Positions 39,109 to 50,118 of a DNA stretch of 64,000 bases are shown here, in pieces. A program made the translations under genes and the position numbers. Origin of the DNA: Marinirhabdus gelatinilytica (GTDB lineage Bacteria; Bacteroidota; Bacteroidia; Flavobacteriales; Flavobacteriaceae); contig NZ_QRAO01000002.1 of NCBI RefSeq assembly GCF_003353425.1, positions 296,496 through 360,495 of the forward strand, read 5' to 3'. The notes beneath the pieces were generated by a model, which was not told where the DNA came from, did no database searches, and saw only the letters and a list, made by a program, of their open reading frames with translations. Numbering within the stretch: position 1 is the stretch's first letter; every line of letters begins with the position of its first letter.

Positions 39109-40221
39109 TTAAGCCCTTACATAGGTAACCAGCCCGGTCTCTTCGGCTTTACCACGTAAGCTCTCATCGCCCAGTTCCTTTTTTATGATGCCTTTGGGTA
39201 AGGTATAGCAAAGGTCTGCAAAGGTCTCAGAAGCAAGAATCTCTACATTGTACACTTTGCACTGTTCTTGGATACGGGAAGTAGTGTTAAGCACATCTCC
39301 GGAGAACGCAATCTCTCTTTTTATCTTCCCTATTTCGCCCACCATTACACTTCCGCAGTGAATACCAACTTTAAACTCGGGAAAATAGCCATAGCGCTGC
39401 ATATAGCGTTTTCTACGGTAGCGGAGCATACGTTTCATATTATAAAAACAACGTACGGTGTTCCCGCCCTTCAATCCATGTTTCATTTTCCATGAAATCA
39501 CGATCTCATCACCCACATATTGATACACCTCGCCACGGGACTGTACAATGGCAGGGGCAATGTCCCGAAAGAAATCCTTTAAAAAGTTAAAATACTTTTT
39601 CTCTCCCAAAGCTTCGGCTATTCCTGTTGCGTTCTTGATATCGGCAAACATAAAGATGCGGCGCTCTTTCTTGGGTCTGAAATATCTACCCAACAAATAA
39701 TCCGGGAACACCCCCGGGCCGTATTTTTCGTTTACCATCAGCACGATTAGGGTACCGATCACAATGAACAACCACACCACAAAATTTTTGATAAAGAGCC
39801 ACGTCCTGAAAAACGCCTTGAACCGTTCCATGACCGCTGGATCGTAAAAGGGCAGCCCGAGCTCTTCGCTATAATAGTACAGCGCGCCAATGGTACTCAC
39901 CACCAGTGCTCCAATTATATAAGTAATAGTAATGTACAAAAGAGCTTTCCAAAATGCGTTGTTGCGCAACCAACGGTCCATAAGGTTCACTGTTAGGGTC
40001 CCGCCTATAATGCCAGCCGTGAGCCCAACAATAAAGTTGGACCAGAATGCTTGCGAGAAGTCGTAATTGGAATCTAATATACCGTTGCTGTACAGCGTTA
40101 AAAACTCGTAAAAGAAAAGGAGGTTGGAGATAAGCAGCCAAGCAATTAGGATGTAGAGTGCCCGTTTTGTATAAAACCAAAACTGCCTTTTGCTATATCG
40201 TTTAAATCTTGGTTTGCCCAC
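39109..40221 (-). CDS. Membrane-bound class III adenylate/guanylate cyclase
   Basis: 370 residues. The start codon is GTG at 40221, directly behind the TAA of the upstream gene. Four membrane helices fill about 15-165 (YILIAWLLISNLLFFYEFL, FIVGLTAGIIGGTL, ALLYITITYIIGALVVS, FVVWLFIVIGTLIVLMV). The catalytic domain follows: FADIKNATG and QYVGDEIVISW carry the two metal Asp residues, and VLNTTSRIQEQC gives the transition-state Asn and Arg. It makes a cyclic nucleotide in response to an unknown membrane cue. It is coupled to the DUF1801/YdeI gene. Confidence 0.9.
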   Translation of the reverse strand: MGKPRFKRYSKRQFWFYTKRALYILIAWLLISNLLFFYEFLTLYSNGILDSNYDFSQAFWSNFIVGLTAGIIGGTLTVNLMDRWLRNNAFWKALLYITITYIIGALVVSTIGALYYYSEELGLPFYDPAVMERFKAFFRTWLFIKNFVVWLFIVIGTLIVLMVNEKYGPGVFPDYLLGRYFRPKKERRIFMFADIKNATGIAEALGEKKYFNFLKDFFRDIAPAIVQSRGEVYQYVGDEIVISWKMKHGLKGGNTVRCFYNMKRMLRYRRKRYMQRYGYFPEFKVGIHCGSVMVGEIGKIKREIAFSGDVLNTTSRIQEQCKVYNVEILASETFADLCYTLPKGIIKKELGDESLRGKAEETGLVTYVRA

Positions 40222-40899: not shown

Positions 40900-41907
40900 T
40901 TATCGCTTCACAAACCGAAGCACCCTTTCCCCATGTTGTGTAGCTATTTTTACAAAGTACACTCCATTTTGTAAAGCTGAAACGGGAATGGTTTGTTTTC
41001 CGTTCGGGGCCTGCATATTGGCTTGGCTGTACACTCGTTTCCCTTGTATATCAAATAATTCAATATATAAAAATTGCACAAAGCTCTCTGCTGAAATTGT
41101 AATGACATCTTCCGCTGGATTTGGGAACAAGGTAATGCTCACTGCCAAATCATTTTCAGAAACCGAAAGAAACTGGTTGTATAGGTTCTGCAGTATGTCA
41201 ATAGGTTCGGTACCGCTGGGTTGTTCGCCCACGTTCAACCTTAGGTAGGGGTCATTGGGATCGTCGTCTTCTTTATACACCAAAAGGTAGGCAGTAGTGG
41301 AGGAGGTCCCAGCATTGAGACAACGGGCATCGGCTCCCGCAAAATTAGCTCCTTGCAAGGCGGCCATCAGCTTATCGGCCAAAGTACCGTTGGTATTGTT
41401 AAAATTATCCTCCATATTGTCTATCACGGTTTGGTTAAGCAGGATATTTCCTTGTATGCTAAAGGTTGCACCTTGGCGGTCTTCTTTATAGTCGTCTGCC
41501 ATACTGCCCGTAAAGCCTGCTACCCGTGGGTCTCCGTTGGTGTCAAAATCGGCAATGCCGTATTGCCTGAATTCCGGATTGAAGTTTTGCGAGGCGCAGG
41601 AATCGTTTGCGAGCAGGAAATCAATGATCTCCTGTGGCGATGCGCCCATTTCCATTTGGTCTATGGCGTTGTTAAGATTGCTGTTGGGTATGCATACGTA
41701 GGCTTGGGAGTTCACACCACCGCGGCCGGGGATAATATCGGTAATAATATCTATGATGCCCTGTGCGCCAATTCCCGTAACACAGGAAGCACCGGCGGAG
41801 CCAATCTCGCCCGTGGCAGGATCTACGGCGATGATGGAAAAGGTATCTTGCGAAAATGTGGTAAAACTCAGTAGGCCGGCTAGGGCGAGCGTGTATAGTT
41901 TTTTCAT
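40900..41907 (-). CDS. DUF1028 protein with T9SS sorting domain
   Basis: 335 residues. A signal peptide (ending FTTFSQ) is followed by the DUF1028 domain from DTFSIIAVDPATGEIGSAGA; the Thr/Ser after the signal fits its predicted Ntn-hydrolase-like fold. Conserved blocks are PGRGGVNSQAYV, LLANDSCASQNFNPEFRQYG and GNILLNQTVIDNM. The C-terminal 75 residues are a T9SS sorting domain (LFPNPAEDVITI, YFVKIATQHGERVLRFVKR). It is therefore secreted to the surface or medium; substrate unknown. It is divergent from the TonB receptor and shares the intergenic region holding a LytTR-type operator. Confidence 0.9.
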   Translation of the reverse strand: MKKLYTLALAGLLSFTTFSQDTFSIIAVDPATGEIGSAGASCVTGIGAQGIIDIITDIIPGRGGVNSQAYVCIPNSNLNNAIDQMEMGASPQEIIDFLLANDSCASQNFNPEFRQYGIADFDTNGDPRVAGFTGSMADDYKEDRQGATFSIQGNILLNQTVIDNMEDNFNNTNGTLADKLMAALQGANFAGADARCLNAGTSSTTAYLLVYKEDDDPNDPYLRLNVGEQPSGTEPIDILQNLYNQFLSVSENDLAVSITLFPNPAEDVITISAESFVQFLYIELFDIQGKRVYSQANMQAPNGKQTIPVSALQNGVYFVKIATQHGERVLRFVKR

Positions 41908-41964: not shown

Positions 41965-41994
41965 TACAATTCAACCCAACGAAACTACAGTTCG
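41965..41994 (+). promoter_or_regulatory. LytTR-type operator 1 (upstream of the TonB receptor)
   Basis: TACAATTCA (41965-41973) and TACAGTTCG (41986-41994) are direct repeats whose starts are 21 bp apart. This is the form of known LytTR-domain sites (two ACAGTT-type 9-mers spaced by 12). A CATTTTTG -7-like element starts 36 bp after the second repeat. Confidence 0.7.
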
Positions 41995-42074
41995 GTTTTG
42001 TTTTTTAGCATGGTAAGGTTTACAAAGTGCATTTTTGAAGTGAATTTAAAGGCCAACCCATAAAATTTCAGTAT

Positions 42075-44237
42075 ATGTCACGCATCCACTTCATCATTAT
42101 TATTACGCTCACATTGTTTTCTTTTGGTCCACTCAGGGCGCAGCAAACTATCTCAGGTACAGTGCTCCAAAAAAACGGCACACCCATCTTTGGTGCCAAT
42201 GTATATCTGGAAGGTACCTACGATGGCGCCTCTACCGACGAGCAGGGTAATTTCAGTTTTAAAACTTCCGAAACGGGAGTACAAACCTTAGTGGTGTCCT
42301 ATGTTTCCTTTCAACCGTTTATGATGGCGGGCGATGTGTCCCAATTGAGAGGGGTTACCATTACGTTAAAGGAAGATTTTAATTCCTTGGATACCGTGGT
42401 AATTAGCGCAGGAAGCTTGGAGGCTAGCGATAACAGTAAGGTTTCGGTATTAAAACCGTTGGATGTGGTGACCACGGCTAGCGCCTTGGGGGATTTTGTA
42501 GGGGCTCTGCAAACGTTGCCTGGAACCACAACAGTTGCCGAGGACGGCCGCCTATTTGTACGTGGTGGCGATGCGGGCGAAACACAGATCTTTATAGATG
42601 GAATCCGCGTGTTTACGCCTTACACACCCACGACCAACAATATCCCCACACGGGGGCGGTACAGTCCGTTTTTGTTCGATGGGATTACGTTTTCCACTGG
42701 TGGATACTCGGCCGAATATGGGCAGGCACTTTCTTCCGTATTGCTCTTGAACACCGTGGACGAGCCCGACCAAGAAAAGACTGAAATTGCTTTGATGACC
42801 GTGGGCGGCGGTCTGGGAAACACCCAAAAGTGGGAGAACAGCTCGTTGAGTGTAAATGCGAGCTATATTAACCTAGCGCCATACATAGCCGCGCTCCCCG
42901 GTAGGAACGATTGGCAGAAGCCCTTCGAGTCTATTGCTGGGGAAACCGTTTTCAGAAAAAAATTGAAAAACGGACTCTTTAAACTCTACGCAGCGTACGA
43001 CACCACAAATTTTGAACTTACCCAAGAGGATATTGATGTAGCCGAAGGAGTCTCTTTTAAACTGAAAAACAACAACTTTTACACCAACGCCAGCTATCGA
43101 GGGGATTTGGGCCGTACTTGGAAAATACAGACCGGAGGAAGTTTTACACATTCCAAGAACGAGTTGGGAATAATTGGCTCGGACATAGACAATACTGAGA
43201 ATTCCTTTCATTTTAAACTGAAATTCAGAAAGCGTTTCAGCAACCAAGTGAAATTGAGCTTTGGAGCCGAACAGTTCCTTACTGATTTCTCTGAAGACTT
43301 CAGCAATCCTTCCGTGAGTGCTAATTACGGGTACAACAGCAGTATTTCAGCAGCCTTTGCCGAAACCGATATTATTTTCAGTAAAGAGTTTGCGCTCAAG
43401 GCAGGGGTTCGTGGAGAGTACAGTGAACTGTTCAACCAGTTTACCGTTTCTCCTAGGGCTTCGGTGGCGTATAAAACTGGAAAGGATAGCCAATTGTCCG
43501 TTGCCTATGGTGACTTTTACCAGCAACCGTTTCAGGATGTACTAAAGTTTCAGCAAGACTTGGAGGCACAAAAAACGCAGCATTACATTTTGAACTATCA
43601 ATACGTGGCCAACAACCGTATCTTTAGAGCCGAAGCCTACCAGAAGCAATACAGCAACCTTGTTACCTTCAATACCCCAATGCCAGGATTTGAAAGCAAT
43701 TTTACCAATAACGGCGATGGTTTTGCCCAGGGGATAGACTTATTTTGGAGGGACAACCAGAGTATAAAAAATGTGGACTATTGGGTAAGTTATTCGTTGC
43801 TGGATACAGAGCGTTTGTACCAAAATTTTCCCACTGCCGCCACGCCCTCGTTTGCCAATACGCACAACGCATCGGTGGTTACAAAATACTGGATAGAGGA
43901 CTGGAAGAGCCAGTTGGGTTTCAGTTACCAATACGGTAGCGGGAGGACGTACACCAATCCCAATGTGGAGGGGTTCCTTCAGGAAAAAACGAAAGATTTT
44001 AACAGCTTGAGTTTGAACTGGGCTTATTTGATTGACCCACAAAAAATCCTGTATGTATCGGTGAACAATGTGTTCGGTTTCAATAACATCAATGGGTACC
44101 AATACGCCAGTACCCCGGACGCCAGCGGTAATTTCAATAGGAGGGCGTTAAGACCCGCTCAGGATCAGTTTTTCTTTGTAGGTTTCTTTTGGACCATTAG
44201 CGAGGATGGAACCGACAACCAACTGGATAATTTGTAG
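42075..44237 (+). CDS. TonB-dependent outer-membrane receptor
   Basis: 720 residues. Signal peptide (about 1-22, ending RAQQ), then a carboxypeptidase-regulatory-like beta-sandwich (ISGTVLQKNGTPIFGANVYL to ITLKED, about 24-108), a plug domain (LQTLPGTTTVAEDGRLFVRG, FIDGIRVFTPY), and a barrel of alternating strands to the aromatic end (FFVGFFWTI). It is short for a SusC-type receptor and no SusD partner is next to it. TonB-energised uptake of an unknown ligand is expected. It is the first unit of the LytTR-linked cluster, with operator 1 in front. Inferred: it imports or senses the cue handled by the downstream two-component system. Confidence 0.92.
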   Translation: MSRIHFIIIITLTLFSFGPLRAQQTISGTVLQKNGTPIFGANVYLEGTYDGASTDEQGNFSFKTSETGVQTLVVSYVSFQPFMMAGDVSQLRGVTITLKEDFNSLDTVVISAGSLEASDNSKVSVLKPLDVVTTASALGDFVGALQTLPGTTTVAEDGRLFVRGGDAGETQIFIDGIRVFTPYTPTTNNIPTRGRYSPFLFDGITFSTGGYSAEYGQALSSVLLLNTVDEPDQEKTEIALMTVGGGLGNTQKWENSSLSVNASYINLAPYIAALPGRNDWQKPFESIAGETVFRKKLKNGLFKLYAAYDTTNFELTQEDIDVAEGVSFKLKNNNFYTNASYRGDLGRTWKIQTGGSFTHSKNELGIIGSDIDNTENSFHFKLKFRKRFSNQVKLSFGAEQFLTDFSEDFSNPSVSANYGYNSSISAAFAETDIIFSKEFALKAGVRGEYSELFNQFTVSPRASVAYKTGKDSQLSVAYGDFYQQPFQDVLKFQQDLEAQKTQHYILNYQYVANNRIFRAEAYQKQYSNLVTFNTPMPGFESNFTNNGDGFAQGIDLFWRDNQSIKNVDYWVSYSLLDTERLYQNFPTAATPSFANTHNASVVTKYWIEDWKSQLGFSYQYGSGRTYTNPNVEGFLQEKTKDFNSLSLNWAYLIDPQKILYVSVNNVFGFNNINGYQYASTPDASGNFNRRALRPAQDQFFFVGFFWTISEDGTDNQLDNL

Positions 44238-44277
44238 AAAAAGCTAAGTGCTCTTGAATTATCGAGTAAAGCCGGGG

Positions 44278-44307
44278 TACAGTTCAACCTTAAAAAACTA
44301 CAGTTGG
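44278..44307 (+). promoter_or_regulatory. LytTR-type operator 2 (upstream of the DUF2141-kinase operon)
   Basis: TACAGTTCA (44278-44286) and TACAGTTGG (44299-44307), starts 21 bp apart. A GATATTTG -7-like element begins at 44342, 35 bp after the second repeat, and the ATG follows 26 bp later. Confidence 0.75.
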
Positions 44308-44375
44308 GTAATACATATTTTAATCACCAGCAATTTCAGAAGATATTTGACCCCATAACTTAAAACACAGAAACC

Positions 44376-44789
44376 ATGCAAACACTTATCAATTATTTTG
44401 CGCTCTTGCTCACGGGAATGGTGCTCAACGCACAGAACAATGTGGAGGTAACCATGACAAATTTTAGTAACGATAAAGGAACCGTAAAGGTTGGTCTTTA
44501 CAACAACGAGGGAGATTGGTTGGAGAAAGAGTTCAAGATAGTGGGTTCCAAGATTGAAAACAACACAGCAAAAGTTACCTTTACCAATGTGCCAGACGGT
44601 ATCTATGCCGTATCTTGCTTTCACGACCAGGATAACGATGGCGTTTTTGATATGTATTTGGGGATGATCCCTGCCGAAGATTACGCCTGTAGCAATGGGG
44701 CAACGGGAATGTTTGGCCCTCCCAAATGGAGCGATGCCAAGTTTGAGACCAAAAACAACGAAACCAAACAAATCACATTGAAGCTTTAA
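44376..44789 (+). CDS. DUF2141 periplasmic protein
   Basis: 137 residues with a signal peptide (ending MVLNAQ). The rest is one DUF2141 domain, a beta-sandwich with the marks GTVKVGLYNNEGDWLEK, PDGIYAVSCFHDQDNDGVFD and KWSDAKFETK. The Asp-rich loop DQDNDG looks like a calcium-type site. Function unknown. It is the first gene of the operon running DUF2141, TPR-like protein, kinase, starting 69 bp after operator 2. DUF2141 genes are often near TonB receptors in Flavobacteriia, so it may bind or present the same ligand (inference). Confidence 0.88.
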   Translation: MQTLINYFALLLTGMVLNAQNNVEVTMTNFSNDKGTVKVGLYNNEGDWLEKEFKIVGSKIENNTAKVTFTNVPDGIYAVSCFHDQDNDGVFDMYLGMIPAEDYACSNGATGMFGPPKWSDAKFETKNNETKQITLKL

Positions 44790-44831
44790 GGTATTTTACA
44801 ACTAGCTATTATTATATTTAAACTGAAACCA

Positions 44832-45458
44832 ATGAAACATCTATTCAACATCACCGCATTATTTTTCCTCACCATCGCTGCCACCGCTCAGACCCCGTAC
44901 CAAAAGGGGATGCAAAAAGCCTTTGACATGTGGAAAGCGGGCGAGGCCCAAGAAGCCGGGAACCTTTTTGAACGAATTGCACAAGCAGAGCCGGACAATT
45001 GGTTACCACCCTTTTACGCGGCCCAGGTACTTGTGTTCGATAGTTTTTCTGAAAAGGATGAAAACAAGTTGGTGCCGCAATTAAAAAAAGCACAGGACTT
45101 GGTGAACGATGCCAAGGCAATCTCAAAAGATAATGCCGAAATCTTAGTGTTGGAAGCACAATTGCTAACGGCTTGGATTGTGTTCGATGGGCAAAAGTAT
45201 GGGATGAAGTATAGCGGTAAAGTTTCAGAGTTATACAACAAGGCAAACCAGCTGGCTCCGGACAATCCACGTGTGGTACTAGGTAAGGCAGAGTGGGATA
45301 TGGGTGCCGCAAAGTGGTTTGGCAAATCTACCGAACCCTATTGCAAGGATATAAAAAGAGCCATAGAACTTTTTGCTACCTTTACTCCGCAAGGCGAATT
45401 TCACCCCAAGGGTGGGCTGGAACACGCGCAGGAGGTATTGGCCCAAAACTGTAAATAA
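44832..45458 (+). CDS. Exported TPR-like protein
   Basis: 208 residues with a signal peptide (ending AATAQ). Helix pairs resembling TPR units are visible (MQKAFDMWKAGEAQEAGNLF, KLVPQLKKAQDLVNDAKAI, SELYNKANQLAPDNPRVVLG). A Cys close to the end (CKDI, NCK) may form a disulfide. No enzyme motif. Its TAA overlaps the kinase ATG by one base (TAATG), so the two proteins are made together. A periplasmic protein tied to the sensor kinase is a plausible co-receptor; that is inferred. Confidence 0.78.
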   Translation: MKHLFNITALFFLTIAATAQTPYQKGMQKAFDMWKAGEAQEAGNLFERIAQAEPDNWLPPFYAAQVLVFDSFSEKDENKLVPQLKKAQDLVNDAKAISKDNAEILVLEAQLLTAWIVFDGQKYGMKYSGKVSELYNKANQLAPDNPRVVLGKAEWDMGAAKWFGKSTEPYCKDIKRAIELFATFTPQGEFHPKGGLEHAQEVLAQNCK

Positions 45459-46795
45459 TGAGTGCAACCACTTTTTTAAAGGAATTTTTAAAGGCCGGAT
45501 TTATAGGGACACTTATATTTCTGGTCTTGGCGCTTATACAATTTGCCACTGGAAATTTCAGGCTTACTTGGGATACATTTTGGTACGAGTACGGAATCAA
45601 TCAGATGTATTCTATATCCCTGTACCTGGTCAATGTACCCTTTTTCAATTATATGATCTCAAAGTACGGAAGCGATCTATTTAAATTTAAAAGGCTATCG
45701 CTTGCCTTTTTGGGGACCATCACTATTACCTTATCCTGCTTGTTTTTTGTAAACATGTTTATTGTTACCATTATTCGAGGCGGGACGGTTACAGGGTTTT
45801 TGGAAAATCAGCAATTGGATTATTATTGGGTGGGGTTGCTAATTGCGGTTGTGGTTACAGGTATTTTCTATGCTGTGTACTACTATAAGCACAAAAAGGA
45901 GACACAAGTACAACAGCAAAAGATTATTGCCAAGACAGCATCGGCACAGTTCGATGCGCTCAAGAACCAGTTGGATCCACATTTTTTGTTCAACAGTCTT
46001 AATGTGCTCACCAGTTTGATTGAGGAAAATCCGCAAGCTGCCACAAAGTTCACCACAGCGCTTTCTAAGGTGTACCGCTATGTTTTGGAACAAAAGAATA
46101 AAGAACTGGTCACCGTTGAAGAAGAACTGAAATTTGCACGATTGTACATGTCGCTCATAAAAATGAGGTTTGAGGACAGTATATCCTTTACTGCCCCTGA
46201 AAACGTGAGTAATCCTGAAGCAAAAGTGGTTCCCTTATCGTTACAGTTGTTGCTTGAAAATGCCGTGAAGCACAACCAGGTTACACCTTCCAAAAAATTG
46301 CATATCTCCATATTTGAAAAAGACGGTAATTTGGTGATACAGAACAACCTTCAGCCAAAAAAGATTTTACGGGAAAGTAGTGGTGTGGGGCTTCAAAATA
46401 TTTATCAGCGTTACGGACTATTGACCCAAAGACCTGTTTTGGTAGAGAAATCTGCTGCCCAGTTTACGGTTACAATCCCTATGCTTACCAATGTTTCGGT
46501 AGTCCCCCAAAACCAAGAAACATATATTTCTGAAAAACGTATGGAACGTGCCAAGGAATATGTTGAGAAGTTAAAAGGCTTTTACATACACTTAACCATA
46601 TACTGCATTTTCATTCCCGTGTTCATTTGGTTAAATTATAGATCTAACGCTGGTTTCCCTTGGGCTATTTTTCCCATCGTGGGATGGGGCTTTGGGGTAA
46701 TGGGACACGCCTCAGAAACCTTTGACTGGAACCCCTTTTTTAATAAAAGCTGGGAAGAGCGCAAGATAAAACAGTTTATGGACGATGAGAACTGA
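45458..46795 (+). CDS. LytS-type sensor histidine kinase with C-terminal 2TM domain
   Basis: 445 residues. Four membrane helices (about 13-33, 50-66, 82-105, 123-143) precede the HisKA_7TM/LytS-type kinase core: QLDPHFLFNSLN with phospho-acceptor His175, helix to about 235, and an ATP-binding part with N box LLLENAVKHN and G box SGVGLQNIYQRYG. Unusually, after the ATPase domain comes an 80-residue 2TM domain (AKEYVEKLKGFY to WEERKIKQFM, about 365-443), adding two helices and placing the C-terminus back inside. The same domain is encoded alone by the next four genes. The cognate regulator is the LytTR protein at 49360. Confidence 0.93.
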   Translation: MSATTFLKEFLKAGFIGTLIFLVLALIQFATGNFRLTWDTFWYEYGINQMYSISLYLVNVPFFNYMISKYGSDLFKFKRLSLAFLGTITITLSCLFFVNMFIVTIIRGGTVTGFLENQQLDYYWVGLLIAVVVTGIFYAVYYYKHKKETQVQQQKIIAKTASAQFDALKNQLDPHFLFNSLNVLTSLIEENPQAATKFTTALSKVYRYVLEQKNKELVTVEEELKFARLYMSLIKMRFEDSISFTAPENVSNPEAKVVPLSLQLLLENAVKHNQVTPSKKLHISIFEKDGNLVIQNNLQPKKILRESSGVGLQNIYQRYGLLTQRPVLVEKSAAQFTVTIPMLTNVSVVPQNQETYISEKRMERAKEYVEKLKGFYIHLTIYCIFIPVFIWLNYRSNAGFPWAIFPIVGWGFGVMGHASETFDWNPFFNKSWEERKIKQFMDDEN

Positions 46796-46802
46796 GAGCA
46801 AT

Positions 46803-46832
46803 TACATTTCAGTATACAAAATCTACAGTTGG
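46803..46832 (+). promoter_or_regulatory. LytTR-type operator 3 (upstream of the 2TM operon)
   Basis: TACATTTCA (46803-46811) and TACAGTTGG (46824-46832), starts 21 bp apart. TACTTTAG (46867-46874), a -7-like element, begins exactly 35 bp after the second repeat, as in operator 2; the ATG is 68 bp away. Confidence 0.75.
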
Positions 46833-46899
46833 GTGAGTCTCTTTTTAATTTGTGTACGTATCAGGGTACTTTAGTCCTGTAATTAGAAAACAAACAATT

Positions 46900-47184
46900 A
46901 TGGAAACTTTCAACACATCTCAAGAAACAAAACTACAAATGGCCAGAGAGCACGTAGAGAAGCTCAAAGGCTTTTACTCACACCTTACGGTGTACTTAAT
47001 TTTTGTGCCCATCTTTATAACGATCAATATCCTTGGTGGAAGTAATTTTCCGTGGGCTATTTTTCCAATAGTAGGTTGGGGCATAGGAATAGCTGGTCAC
47101 GCTGCAGAAACCTATAACTGGAGTCCTTTCTTCGGAAGGAATTGGGAACAGCAAAAAATAAAGGAATTTATGGACGCCCAATAA
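46900..47184 (+). CDS. 2TM-domain protein 1
   Basis: 94 residues from the ATG at 46900; the frame is open 16 codons upstream but that covers the promoter. A basic helix (MAREHVEKLKGFYSHLT) leads to two membrane helices (VYLIFVPIFITINIL, AIFPIVGWGIGIAGHAAET) and a charged end (WEQQKIKEFMD). It is nearly the same as the C-terminal domain of the kinase upstream, sharing FPWAIFPIVGWG and GHA-ET. First gene behind operator 3. It could compete with or join the kinase's own 2TM domain. Confidence 0.88.
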   Translation: METFNTSQETKLQMAREHVEKLKGFYSHLTVYLIFVPIFITINILGGSNFPWAIFPIVGWGIGIAGHAAETYNWSPFFGRNWEQQKIKEFMDAQ

Positions 47185-47204
47185 GTTGAAACCCTTAAAA
47201 AACA

Positions 47205-47513
47205 ATGATCATGGAATCTAATCTAAAAAAGCAAAACAAGTACCTACGTGCCAAAGAACGCGTAGCCGAACTGAAGAAATTCTACACCAGCTTGATAGGA
47301 TACGTTTTGGTAATCTCTATGCTTGCCGCACTTAACTATTATACCAACGGGTGGAGCTACATGTGGTTCTTATGGGCAGCATTTGGCTGGGGAATAGGGT
47401 TGCTGTTCCAAGCCGCAAAGGCGTACCAGTGGAGCCCATTTATGGGCAAGAACTGGGAAGAGCGTAAACTTAAAGAATTTCTGGATGAAGAAGAGAAAAA
47501 CCAATGGCGATAA
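47205..47513 (+). CDS. 2TM-domain protein 2
   Basis: 102 residues (or 100 from the second ATG at 47211). Same pattern as its neighbours: RAKERVAELKKFYTSLIGY, first helix VLVISMLAALNYY, WFLWAAFGWGIGLLFQAAKAY, then WEERKLKEFLDEEEK. The aligned His of the second helix (GHA in protein 1) is replaced by Q here. It starts 20 bp after protein 1. Confidence 0.85.
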   Translation: MIMESNLKKQNKYLRAKERVAELKKFYTSLIGYVLVISMLAALNYYTNGWSYMWFLWAAFGWGIGLLFQAAKAYQWSPFMGKNWEERKLKEFLDEEEKNQWR

Positions 47514-47537
47514 TACTCGATATTTAAAAACACAACC

Positions 47538-47867
47538 ATGAAAACCAAAACGACCACACCCTACGAGCGCGCCCAGAAAAAGGTGTCCGCGATAAAGAAC
47601 TTTTACAAACACTTGCGGGCGTATCTCATCATAAACGTATTTTTGTTGCTGTTACGGGCAAAGATCTTCAGGGTTTTTGAAGATGGTAACCTTTCCGACG
47701 TACATTTTGAGCGCTGGTTGGACCTCAACACCTACGGTACTAGCATCGTTTGGGGTGTAGCGCTGCTCATTCACGGATTGTATGCGTTTCAGTACAAATT
47801 CAATTTTTTAAAAAAATGGGAAGCGCGTAAACTAAACGAAATACTGGAAAAAGATGAACTCGAATAA
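47538..47867 (+). CDS. 2TM-domain protein 3
   Basis: 109 residues. RAQKKVSAIKNFYKHLRAYL, then helix IINVFLLLLRAKIF, a longer loop than its neighbours (EDGNLSDVHFERWLDLN), TSIVWGVALLIHGLYAF with a His, and KKWEARKLNEILEKDELE. It lacks the WAIFPIVGWG block of protein 1, so it is the more diverged type shared with protein 4. Its end overlaps the start of protein 4 by 14 bp. Confidence 0.85.
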   Translation: MKTKTTTPYERAQKKVSAIKNFYKHLRAYLIINVFLLLLRAKIFRVFEDGNLSDVHFERWLDLNTYGTSIVWGVALLIHGLYAFQYKFNFLKKWEARKLNEILEKDELE

Positions 47868-48195
47868 TTTCTCAAACAAAGAACTTACCCAAAAGCAAAA
47901 GCTCGAAAAGGCTAAAAAACGAGTTGAAAAAATAAAGGGCTTCTATTCACATGCTATTGTGTATGCCATTGTTAACCTTCTCATATTATTGTCCTCAATG
48001 GGTTTCTTCACAAATGGTTTTGTAAACCTGCACATGCCAAGTTGGGGTTATTTTACCACACCTTTTTTCTGGGGCATTGGGCTTTTTTTCCACGGATTGA
48101 GCGTATTTAAAACAGGGTTTCTGAAAAAATGGGAGCAACGTAAAATCCAGGAGTATCTCGAAAAAGAAGAAAGGGATTTTGAAAAATTCAACTAA
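47854..48195 (+). CDS. 2TM-domain protein 4
   Basis: 113 residues. AKKRVEKIKGFYSHAIVYAI, helix VNLLILLSSMGFF, loop with PSWGYFTTPFFWGIGLFFHGLSVF and KKWEQRKIQEYLEKEERDF. Like protein 3 it keeps a His in the second helix and has the KKWE ending. The ATG lies inside the end of the preceding gene, indicating coupled translation. The amidohydrolase gene follows after 17 bp. Confidence 0.85.
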   Translation: MNSNNFSNKELTQKQKLEKAKKRVEKIKGFYSHAIVYAIVNLLILLSSMGFFTNGFVNLHMPSWGYFTTPFFWGIGLFFHGLSVFKTGFLKKWEQRKIQEYLEKEERDFEKFN

Positions 48196-48212: not shown

Positions 48213-49349
48213 ATGAAAATAGTACTACACATAACAATGCTGTTCTTTGCTACAGTTCTCTCGGCACAAAGTTTCGTGATAACCAACGTAACCTTGTTCG
48301 ATGGGGAAACAGTTACTGAAAATACATCAGTACTTATTGAAGACGGGGAGATTACAAAAATTTCAGAAGAAATAAGTACCACCGCCACAATAATTGATGG
48401 AACAGGTAAATTTCTTATGCCAGCAATGACCAATGGTCACGTACACGCTTGGAGTCCGCAAAGCCTTAAGGAAGCAGCACAAGCAGGAGTGTTGAACGTT
48501 CTGGATATGCACGGAATAGAGACCATGCAGGGAATGATGAAGCAATTGAGCGATTCTACCAACTATGCCCGCTATTTTGTGGCTGGAGCTGCAGCAACAG
48601 TGCCAGGGGGTCACGGAACGCAATACGGCTTCCCAACACCTACGCTCACCAAGACAGAGGAAGCAACAAAGTTTGTTGAGGATAGACTGAAGGCTGGAGC
48701 CAATTACCTAAAAATTATTGTAGAACCCTGGAAAGAAACACTCTCCCACGAAACCGTAAAAGCACTTATAGATGCCGCGCATGAAAAACAAAGTGTTGCT
48801 GTTGTGCATATCTCCAAGGCAGATGACGCAAAAAAGGTGATGGCAAACGGCGCCGATGGACTGGTGCATTTATGGTGGGACACCTTGCTCACTTCCAGCG
48901 AACTCAACGAATGGAAAAAGAACAGCAACGCTTTTATAATGCCCACCCTCCTTACCAGTAAATTATTTTTGGAGAATATCCGTCCAACAGCTCCTAAAGA
49001 AAGTATGCTGAGCGATGAGGACTTGCTCTTACAGGTAAAGAATGTGTATGAAGCAGGAATCCCTCTCTTGGCCGGTACCGACCCCCCAAACGCAGGGATA
49101 AATTATGGCACCGATCTTTACAAAGAATTGGATTTGCTCTCAAAAGCAGGAATCCCAAACCTTGAAGTACTAAAGACCGCCACATCGTTGCCACCAAAAC
49201 ATTTTAAGCTTGGTACTTTTGGAATGATAAGGGAAGGCTATAAGGCAGATTTGTTGCTTCTTGGTAAAAACCCGATTTTGGACATACAAAATATTGCCAG
49301 TATCGAGACTATCTGGAAAGAAGGGAAAGTTGTAGCTCAAACCAAATAA
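48213..49349 (+). CDS. Exported amidohydrolase
   Basis: 378 residues. A signal peptide (ending TVLSAQ) is followed by an amidohydrolase-type TIM barrel. The N-terminal sandwich strand ITNVTLFDGETVTE and GTGKFLMPAMTNGHVHAW carry the HxH metal pair. YLKIIVEPW has Lys in the place of the bridging carbamyl-Lys; VVHISKADDAKK and DGLVHLWWD give the next His residues; LLAGTDPPNAG gives the final Asp. Substrates of such exported enzymes are often cyclic amides or peptides. It is unusual to find it between membrane signalling genes and a response regulator, which suggests that it makes or destroys the signal (inference). Confidence 0.88.
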   Translation: MKIVLHITMLFFATVLSAQSFVITNVTLFDGETVTENTSVLIEDGEITKISEEISTTATIIDGTGKFLMPAMTNGHVHAWSPQSLKEAAQAGVLNVLDMHGIETMQGMMKQLSDSTNYARYFVAGAAATVPGGHGTQYGFPTPTLTKTEEATKFVEDRLKAGANYLKIIVEPWKETLSHETVKALIDAAHEKQSVAVVHISKADDAKKVMANGADGLVHLWWDTLLTSSELNEWKKNSNAFIMPTLLTSKLFLENIRPTAPKESMLSDEDLLLQVKNVYEAGIPLLAGTDPPNAGINYGTDLYKELDLLSKAGIPNLEVLKTATSLPPKHFKLGTFGMIREGYKADLLLLGKNPILDIQNIASIETIWKEGKVVAQTK

Positions 49350-49359
49350 AGAACCGCTT

Positions 49360-50118
49360 ATGAGAGTACTTGTAATAGAAGATGAAAAACCAGCGGCAAG
49401 GCGCTTACAACGTATGCTCGAGCGACTGGATGTTTCTGTAGACCATCTTCTCCACAGTGTTGAGGAGGCCATGACCTATTTTAAAAGCAATCCACACCCA
49501 GACCTTATCTTTTTGGATATACAGTTGAGCGATGGGCTTTCTTTCGAAATTTTTGATGAAGTTGATATAAAGAGCGCCATCATATTCACTACGGCCTACG
49601 ACGAATATGCACTCCAAGCATTTAAGTTGAATAGTGTGGACTACCTCCTAAAACCTATTGATGAGGAAGAATTGGAAAGCGCTGTAAAAAAATATTCCAA
49701 CCTGCACACCAAGCCCCAGCAGGTACAATTGAATTTTGAGGACATCAAAAAACTATTGGGCAGCAGCCCTGTGGAACGCGAATATAAGAAACGCTTTACC
49801 ACAAAGATTGGGCAGCACATTAAAATGATCTCGATAGATGAGGTGGAATGTTTCTATTCTGAAAATAAGGGAACCTATGCCCACACCCTTGATGGTAGGG
49901 ACTATTTGCTGGACACAACCCTGGAACAACTGGAAGACGAGCTAGAGCCCCAAACCTTTTTTAGGGTAAGCCGAAAATTCTACGTAAACATTAATGCCAT
50001 AAAGGACATTATAAGCTACACCAACAGTCGTTTGCAATTAAAACTGAACAATTATAGGGAACAAGAAGTGATCGTAGCTCGAGAGCGCGTTCGAGATTTT
50101 AAACTGTGGCTGGAATAA
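49360..50118 (+). CDS. LytTR-family response regulator
   Basis: 252 residues. Receiver domain 1-115: acidic pair at IEDEK (residues 7-9), phospho-acceptor Asp53 in IFLDIQLSDG, Thr in FTTAYDEYA and Lys in YLLKPI. The LytTR DNA-binding domain covers about 140-250 (IKMISIDEVECFYSENKGTY, FFRVSRKFYVNINAIKDII, ending VARERVRDFKLWL). LytTR proteins bind paired direct repeats about 21 bp apart, as found in front of three units of this cluster. Its partner is the LytS-type kinase at 45458. It is the last gene of the 2TM operon and abuts the convergent gene at 50119. Confidence 0.95.
   Translation: MRVLVIEDEKPAARRLQRMLERLDVSVDHLLHSVEEAMTYFKSNPHPDLIFLDIQLSDGLSFEIFDEVDIKSAIIFTTAYDEYALQAFKLNSVDYLLKPIDEEELESAVKKYSNLHTKPQQVQLNFEDIKKLLGSSPVEREYKKRFTTKIGQHIKMISIDEVECFYSENKGTYAHTLDGRDYLLDTTLEQLEDELEPQTFFRVSRKFYVNINAIKDIISYTNSRLQLKLNNYREQEVIVARERVRDFKLWLE

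Follow-up and report, generated by a model that had tools for sequence, protein, structure and literature searches.

A putative LytTR operator–promoter module at an envelope and signalling gene cluster of Marinirhabdus gelatinilytica and its occurrence in the Flavobacteriaceae

The gene cluster and its putative operator pairs

The window examined here, a stretch of 64,000 nucleotides from Marinirhabdus gelatinilytica (contig NZ_QRAO01000002.1), carries on its plus strand a gene cluster in three predicted transcription units, each preceded by a pair of direct repeats. To judge from sequence evidence, these sites are very probably a LytTR operator–promoter module, bound and activated by a response regulator encoded at 49360 in the same cluster. 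The first unit is a gene for a TonB-dependent receptor of 720 aa (42075..44237), with CarbopepD_reg_2 and Plug domains in Pfam. The second comprises a DUF2141 protein of 137 aa (44376..44789; Pfam), a TPR-like protein of 208 aa (44832..45458), whose Pfam TPR matches fall under the curated cut-off, and a LytS-type histidine kinase (PF06580) of 445 aa (45458..46795). Pfam and the hydrophobic segments of the kinase place a 2TM domain (PF13239) at its C terminus. The third begins with an array of four stand-alone 2TM-domain proteins identified with Pfam (46900..48195; individual genes at 46900–47184, 47205–47513, 47538–47867 and 47854–48195), followed by an amidohydrolase-family protein of 378 aa (48213..49349; Pfam) and the response regulator (49360..50118). 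The regulator has receiver (PF00072, 56.9 bits) and LytTR DNA-binding (PF04397, 79.5 bits) domains, both over the curated cut-offs; its best NCBIfam matches, BtsR and LytR, are both under cut-off. A LytS-type kinase is encoded together with a LytTR regulator in this cluster, and the regulator is the presumed ligand of the operators on the basis of its domains and of co-occurrence. The genome encodes ten LytTR domains.

The original prediction placed pairs with a 21 bp period at 41965/41986, 44278/44299 and 46803/46824, before all three transcription units, and both the positions and this placement were confirmed. Operator 1 (ACAATTCAA-N12-ACAGTTCGG, 41966..41995) precedes the receptor gene, where it is also conserved in relatives. 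Operator 2 (ACAGTTCAA-N12-ACAGTTGGG, 44279..44308) precedes the DUF2141–TPR–kinase genes, and operator 3 (ACATTTCAG-N12-ACAGTTGGG, 46804..46833) precedes the 2TM array; all three are on the plus strand. The pattern TACANTT-N14-TACANTT has exactly three matches on the two strands of the window, one before each unit. The chance level is a mean of 0.01 per window, and none of 100 dinucleotide shuffles attained three.

Across the genome (3.29 Mb in 24 contigs, 99.9 % complete), the pattern ACANTT[CG][AG]N-N12-ACANTT[CG][AG]G is matched perfectly at exactly four places, three in the window and one outside it, and with one mismatch at four more. The coincidence of sequence, spacing and placement had been considered hard to obtain by chance, and these counts bear this out. 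When the operator was combined with the −7 element described below, four hits were obtained at up to two mismatches, namely the three sites of the window and the fourth site; at exactly three mismatches there were 22 hits, with 15 in the reversed control at up to three. Operator-only matches at up to two mismatches were dismissed beyond the four perfect ones: there were 125, against 78 in the reversed control, so the imperfect ones are mostly due to chance. Also dismissed were L011 and L016, two other exact TACANTT pairs of the genome, because they score under the position weight matrix (PWM) thresholds used.

The fourth operator is found some 19.6 kb to the left of the window (contig C2:276832–276861, minus strand), upstream of a second DUF2141 gene identified with Pfam. 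The gene that follows this DUF2141 gene resembles, by eye, an OxyR-type LysR regulator.

Conservation and architecture of the predicted promoters

A scan of public genomes with the kinase protein gave 80 loci, of which 72 (L041–L113 without L110) were used for counting; L110 and L114–L120, which have distant kinases, were excluded. In the 72 loci, ACANTT pairs with a period of 21 occur 142 times on the cluster strand, as against 0–12 times for each other spacing from 8 to 44, and 0–8 times per spacing on the opposite strand and in the sequence read backwards. As in the window, these sites precede the receptor gene, the DUF2141/TPR/kinase genes and the 2TM array. A lack of conservation in related clusters, or random occurrence of such pairs genome-wide, had been named as grounds for rejecting the original prediction; both were looked for, and the pairs proved to be conserved in relatives and not scattered through the genome.

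A PWM was derived from 141 of the 142 sites, leaving out L064:10070, which lies within a 2TM coding region. In leave-one-locus-out scoring the median was 46 bits and the minimum 16. In 71 loci a site of at least 26 bits precedes the kinase operon at its first recognized gene; the one remaining locus is cut by a contig end. For the 2TM array, a site of at least 15 bits is present in all 57 loci with at least 60 bp after the kinase gene, and 56 of these reach at least 25 bits; in the remaining 11 of 68 loci with an array, it directly follows the kinase. Of 58 loci with a receptor, 49 have the exact pattern before it. Five others that were re-scored have a PWM site of 28.6–38.3 bits, and in the last four (L054, L076, L078 and L088) the receptor match begins at the contig edge. 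In L052, L066, L079 and L113, a second DUF2141 gene with its own operator lies just downstream of the cluster on the opposite strand (at about 12.8–14.4 kb).

With columns numbered from the first A of the operator (offset 0), the conserved columns are 0–8 and 21–29, corresponding to the two 9-mers, 39–42 (TTTT) and 63–70 (the −7 element). Most of the information in the column profile resides in these elements, and the AT-rich middle is weaker. A −7-like element had been predicted after each pair and was found at all three: CATTTTTG (42030–42037) in the receptor promoter, GATATTTG (44342–44349) in that of the kinase operon and TACTTTAG (46867–46874) in that of the 2TM operon, all on the plus strand. 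Its position is fixed in relatives, AnnTTT beginning at offset 64 in 137 of the 142 sites. The gap from the second repeat is 9 bp to the T patch and 33 bp to the −7 element. The available portion of PMC9723704 places the −7 box TAnnTTTG of Flavobacterium psychrophilum at −12 to −5; transcription is therefore predicted to start at position 75, which would place the repeats at about −75 to −67 and −54 to −46. Of the 140 sites in the three promoter classes, 123 have a purine at position 75.

The core of the −7 element is intact in 136 of 140 sites, with a perfect TAnnTTTG in only four of the 136. The first T is absent from all 47 sites of the receptor class, most of which read CAnnTTTG in relatives, and from 57 of 58 sites of the kinase class; the 2TM class has a final A in 27 of 31. 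Comparison of upstream with coding sequence for other genes of the loci and the window gave enrichments of 3.0-fold for TAnnTTTG, 4.1-fold for TAnnTTTA, 0.90 for CAnnTTTG and 0.45 for GAnnTTTG, a contrast somewhat inflated by the AT-richness of upstream regions. The forms found in the receptor and kinase promoters are thus unlike ordinary −7 boxes. The 2TM-class promoter may not be weak, since TAnnTTTA is itself enriched.

The bases of ACANTT were fixed by the search pattern. In the second repeat, the fourth base is G in 65 %, the eighth A or G in 100 % and the ninth G in 94 % of sites; the fourth base of the first repeat is A in 61 % and G in 24 %. The LytTR 9-mer, reportedly given by Nikolskaya and Galperin in 2002 as [TA][AC][CA]GTTN[AG][TG], is matched by the second repeat and departed from in part by the first. 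The overall layout, two direct repeats of about 9 bp some 12 bp apart, is within the range of published LytTR sites, for which the accessible part of PMC4847170 gives repeats of 9–11 nt and spacers of 11–13 nt. In two Dokdonia loci (L101 and L104, near 7260), a perfect palindrome, TACGCTTTCGCGAAAGCGTA, is embedded between operator and −7 element with no change in the length of this spacer.

Association with the regulator and extent of the proposed regulon

The operator with its −7 element (up to one mismatch) is present in 120 of 149 Flavobacteriaceae genomes, representing 148 genera, compared with 12 of 149 (15 hits) for the reversed control. An orthologue of the regulator is present in 118 of the 149. 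The pattern occurs in 115 of the 118 genomes with the orthologue and in 5 of the 31 without it, 26 genomes having neither (nominal Fisher p 7e-21). Among the genomes that lack the orthologue and encode other LytTR proteins, 4 of 21 have the pattern (p 2e-15). In the three genomes with the regulator only (G011, G061 and G094), diverged sites of 17.8–26.6 bits lie by the kinase genes. The genomes with the pattern only are G006, considered below, G051, which has one plausible site, and G041, G043 and G092, whose sites look like chance matches.

The regulator gene lies within the fetched locus of the kinase in 57 of the 72 loci and outside the fetched stretch in 15. Eight of these 15 genomes were searched, and all eight have the orthologue elsewhere, 75–84 % identical. 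This indicates that the operators persist when the regulator acts in trans. L041, L052, L064, L066, L079, L101, L103 and L113, where the regulator is away from the kinase locus, are natural trans cases.

Sites distant from the regulator gene were examined in 60 stretches, hand-picked from the listed hits and so not a random sample. In 58 the regulator gene is on another contig or roughly 15 kb or more away; in L192 and L197 it is at about 9 and 6 kb, respectively. A target was defined as a frame of at least 60 codons starting 70–320 bp past the operator, and all 60 stretches have one, starting 75–160 bp past it. By BLAST, the targets comprise 16 DUF2807 lipoproteins, 15 DUF2141 proteins (one joined to a TPR-like part), 13 receptor orthologues, three serine hydrolases of the beta-lactamase family, three DUF4440-like proteins (below cut-off), two ABC ATPases, two DUF2306 proteins and six single ones. 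Pfam was run on L208 and on one to three members per group, the DUF2141 and receptor groups excepted. Because the module precedes unlinked DUF2807, DUF2141 and other genes, the regulon is open across the family, with four units in the genome of the window; the suggestion of a closed regulon does not hold. Two operators stand back to back between divergent receptor and DUF2141 genes in G104 (L232/L233; G104:C3:117799–117957), and likewise between a divergent pair at G032:C1:3463460–3463618, the identity of the genes having been checked for G104 only.

In a sample of the phylum, 51 of 296 genomes have a hit: 28 of 30 from the same family and 23 of 266 from outside it. The reversed control has 10 outside, so that most hits outside the family are expected to be chance. 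All 28 out-of-family hits were scored with the PWM, and LytTR genes were located with PF04397 in 18 whole genomes. Eleven of the 28 have a LytTR gene within 8.5 kb, namely all eight top-scoring hits (at least 18.7 bits) and 3 of the 20 others, the 18.7-bit split having been set after the result was seen. Rank tests of score against LytTR proximity, which need no cut, gave p 4e-5 for either side and 1e-5 for downstream genes on the same strand. In seven of the top eight, the LytTR gene is downstream on the same strand; in G164 it is divergent and 2.5 kb away. At L308 the LytTR domain was found with Pfam. In the lower-scoring group, G419b has a LytTR gene 2.5 kb downstream.

In one genus of another family (G255, G222 and G336), a single operator heads a string of receptor, TPR, kinase and regulator genes, and Pfam finds no 2TM domain in the kinase of G255. 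In G191, the operator is followed by a separate 2TM protein, a kinase without a 2TM domain and a regulator. That this domain is a separate protein in one genome and fused to the kinase in another points to joint action of the 2TM domain and the kinase.

The other two hits of the lower-scoring group outside the family with a nearby LytTR gene, G417a (G417:C23:174439) and G419a (G419:C1:254133), are weak and lie immediately 3′ of that gene. Operator-like matches in L223 (G026:C2) and L236 (G086:C18) lie 2–4 kb from paralogous LytTR regulators of 43–45 % identity. It is possible that the L223, L236 and G417/G419 matches belong to regulons of other LytTR proteins, or arose by chance.

Proposed mechanism, alternatives and related systems

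The original prediction that the repeats are LytTR operators, through which the regulator at 49360 probably activates, is strongly supported by their conservation, their co-occurrence with the regulator and their position upstream of the −33 region. According to the available part of PMC11347149, the majority of LytTR regulators are activators that bind upstream of −35. The operator position fits such an activator-type promoter. We assign a probability of about 0.88 to the reading that the three sites are operators of this regulator, each joined to a core promoter, and serve to activate the units of the cluster. In the mechanism that we propose, the kinase, of LytS type with a 2TM domain, would sense a condition of the envelope and phosphorylate the regulator. 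Two regulator molecules could then bind the two 9-mers on the same face of the DNA, 21 bp being two turns, directly upstream of the −33-like T patch and −7 element, and would recruit polymerase to weak promoters. The loss of the first T of the −7 element implies that transcription from the receptor and kinase promoters should depend on bound regulator. Expression of the receptor, the DUF2141–TPR–kinase operon, the 2TM–amidohydrolase–regulator operon and the unlinked second DUF2141 gene would be raised. As the kinase and regulator operons are among these units, both signalling partners would be under positive autoregulation. BLASTP shows 59 % identity between the first stand-alone 2TM protein and the 2TM domain of the kinase, which suggests that the stand-alone proteins may provide feedback by pairing with it.

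Several points weigh against this activator reading. The −7 element of the window's own receptor promoter is 1 bp farther from its operator than the 64 bp rule of the family, and that of the 2TM operon is imperfect, with TTA where relatives have TTT. No site was found within 1.5 kb either side of the other nine LytTR genes, and the surroundings of the cognate gene are equally empty; this narrow scan is uninformative, and only the genome-wide searches count. The cut for orthologues (best E at most 1e-65) was chosen after the list had been viewed, the next matches being 4e-57 and weaker. Many of the genomes without the regulator are small, and the shared ancestry of the genomes means that the p-values of the co-occurrence overstate independence. 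In G006, a DUF2141 and a DUF2807-like gene are each preceded by a good site, yet no regulator orthologue was found in the assembly. Finally, sequence searches of solved structures gave, among the matches listed (in one search, the best 60 of 78), no DNA-bound LytTR structure on which base contacts could be mapped.

The sites could be genuine LytTR operators that mediate repression, alone or alongside activation, for instance if the unphosphorylated regulator blocks the promoter. Among LytTR proteins, at least CoxC acts as a repressor (PMC11347149, in the part available), and operator 1, lying between the receptor gene and a divergent DUF1028 gene, could affect the latter. However, the CoxC operator overlaps −35, whereas here the 9 bp to the T patch and 33 bp to the −7 element correspond to an activator position, and the lost first T in two promoter classes suits dependence on an activator; repression is accordingly considered improbable. 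Still less probable is binding by another LytTR protein or an unrelated regulator, with the local regulator a mere neighbour. The ten LytTR domains of the genome and the sites of G006 would allow this, but the sites follow the orthologue rather than LytTR proteins at large (they occur in 4 of 21 genomes that encode LytTR proteins but lack this one), and the association survives where the regulator gene lies elsewhere. Moreover, only four perfect operators exist, the unlinked one about 18.5 kb from the nearest other LytTR gene. The fixed distance from repeats to −7 element might also be read as the mark of a sigma-factor or promoter element, but the T patch and −7 element exist apart from the repeats, such promoters number only four in the genome, the 9–12–9 layout is that of LytTR sites, and strong sites adjoin LytTR genes in other families; we regard this explanation as scarcely credible.

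A wider scenario, which goes beyond activation by the LytTR regulator and is put forward only tentatively, is that of an ancient envelope-response regulon of the Flavobacteriaceae with built-in feedback. The ancestral form would be an operon of operator, receptor, TPR, kinase and regulator, an arrangement that one genus of another family still has (L300–L302). This might have been broken into units that each retained a copy of the operator–promoter, the module then spreading to DUF2141, DUF2807 and other envelope genes. Stand-alone 2TM proteins, induced by the regulator, could damp or gate the kinase by pairing with it.

The regulon appears to be new and its operator is of a known type. In the pln bacteriocin regulon of Lactobacillus plantarum, the LytTR pair PlnC/PlnD controls several operons, including its own, through 9 bp direct repeats whose distance from the core promoter is conserved. 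The flavobacterial system differs in phylum, in its −7/−33 promoters, in having envelope genes instead of bacteriocins as targets, some of them unlinked, and in its LytS-2TM kinase, which takes the place of a peptide-pheromone kinase. The combination of a LytS-type kinase with a LytTR response regulator is shared with YpdA/YpdB and BtsS/BtsR (YehU/YehT) of Escherichia coli, which are not known to carry a 2TM domain and have one main transporter target. The target promoters of both contain tandem repeats (PMC4847170, available section). In comparison, the flavobacterial regulon is larger and family-wide. LytTR regulatory systems (LRS), exemplified by HdrRM/BrsRM of streptococci, are similar in that a LytTR regulator is associated with an inhibitory membrane protein, inhibition in the flavobacterial system being a guess; here, in contrast, the regulator carries a receiver domain and is paired with a kinase, and the 2TM membrane partner is also fused to the kinase. 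LRS are mentioned in the available part of PMC11347149. No description of the regulon was found in the literature searched, a scope that left out most subscription journals and all preprints, and it is not treated in the accessible parts of PMC11237479 and PMC5395568.

Within the Flavobacteriaceae, a single sequence pattern assigns targets to a LytTR two-component system in 119 of the 148 genera sampled, and gives DUF2141, DUF2807 and 2TM proteins a regulatory context. It also provides a defined set of promoters for testing activation at TAnnTTTG-type promoters, and the stand-alone copies of the kinase membrane domain suggest a testable feedback design.

Two genes on the minus strand lie close to the cluster. 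One encodes a protein with an adenylate/guanylate cyclase catalytic domain (window 39109–40221). The other, divergent from the receptor gene, encodes a DUF1028 protein with a type IX secretion tail (Por_Secre_tail; window 40900–41907), and operator 1 starts 59 bp from its start codon. The DUF1028 gene may share a control region with the receptor. This divergent pair is kept in 14 of the 72 loci (L041–L047, L049, L059, L070–L072, L075 and L097).

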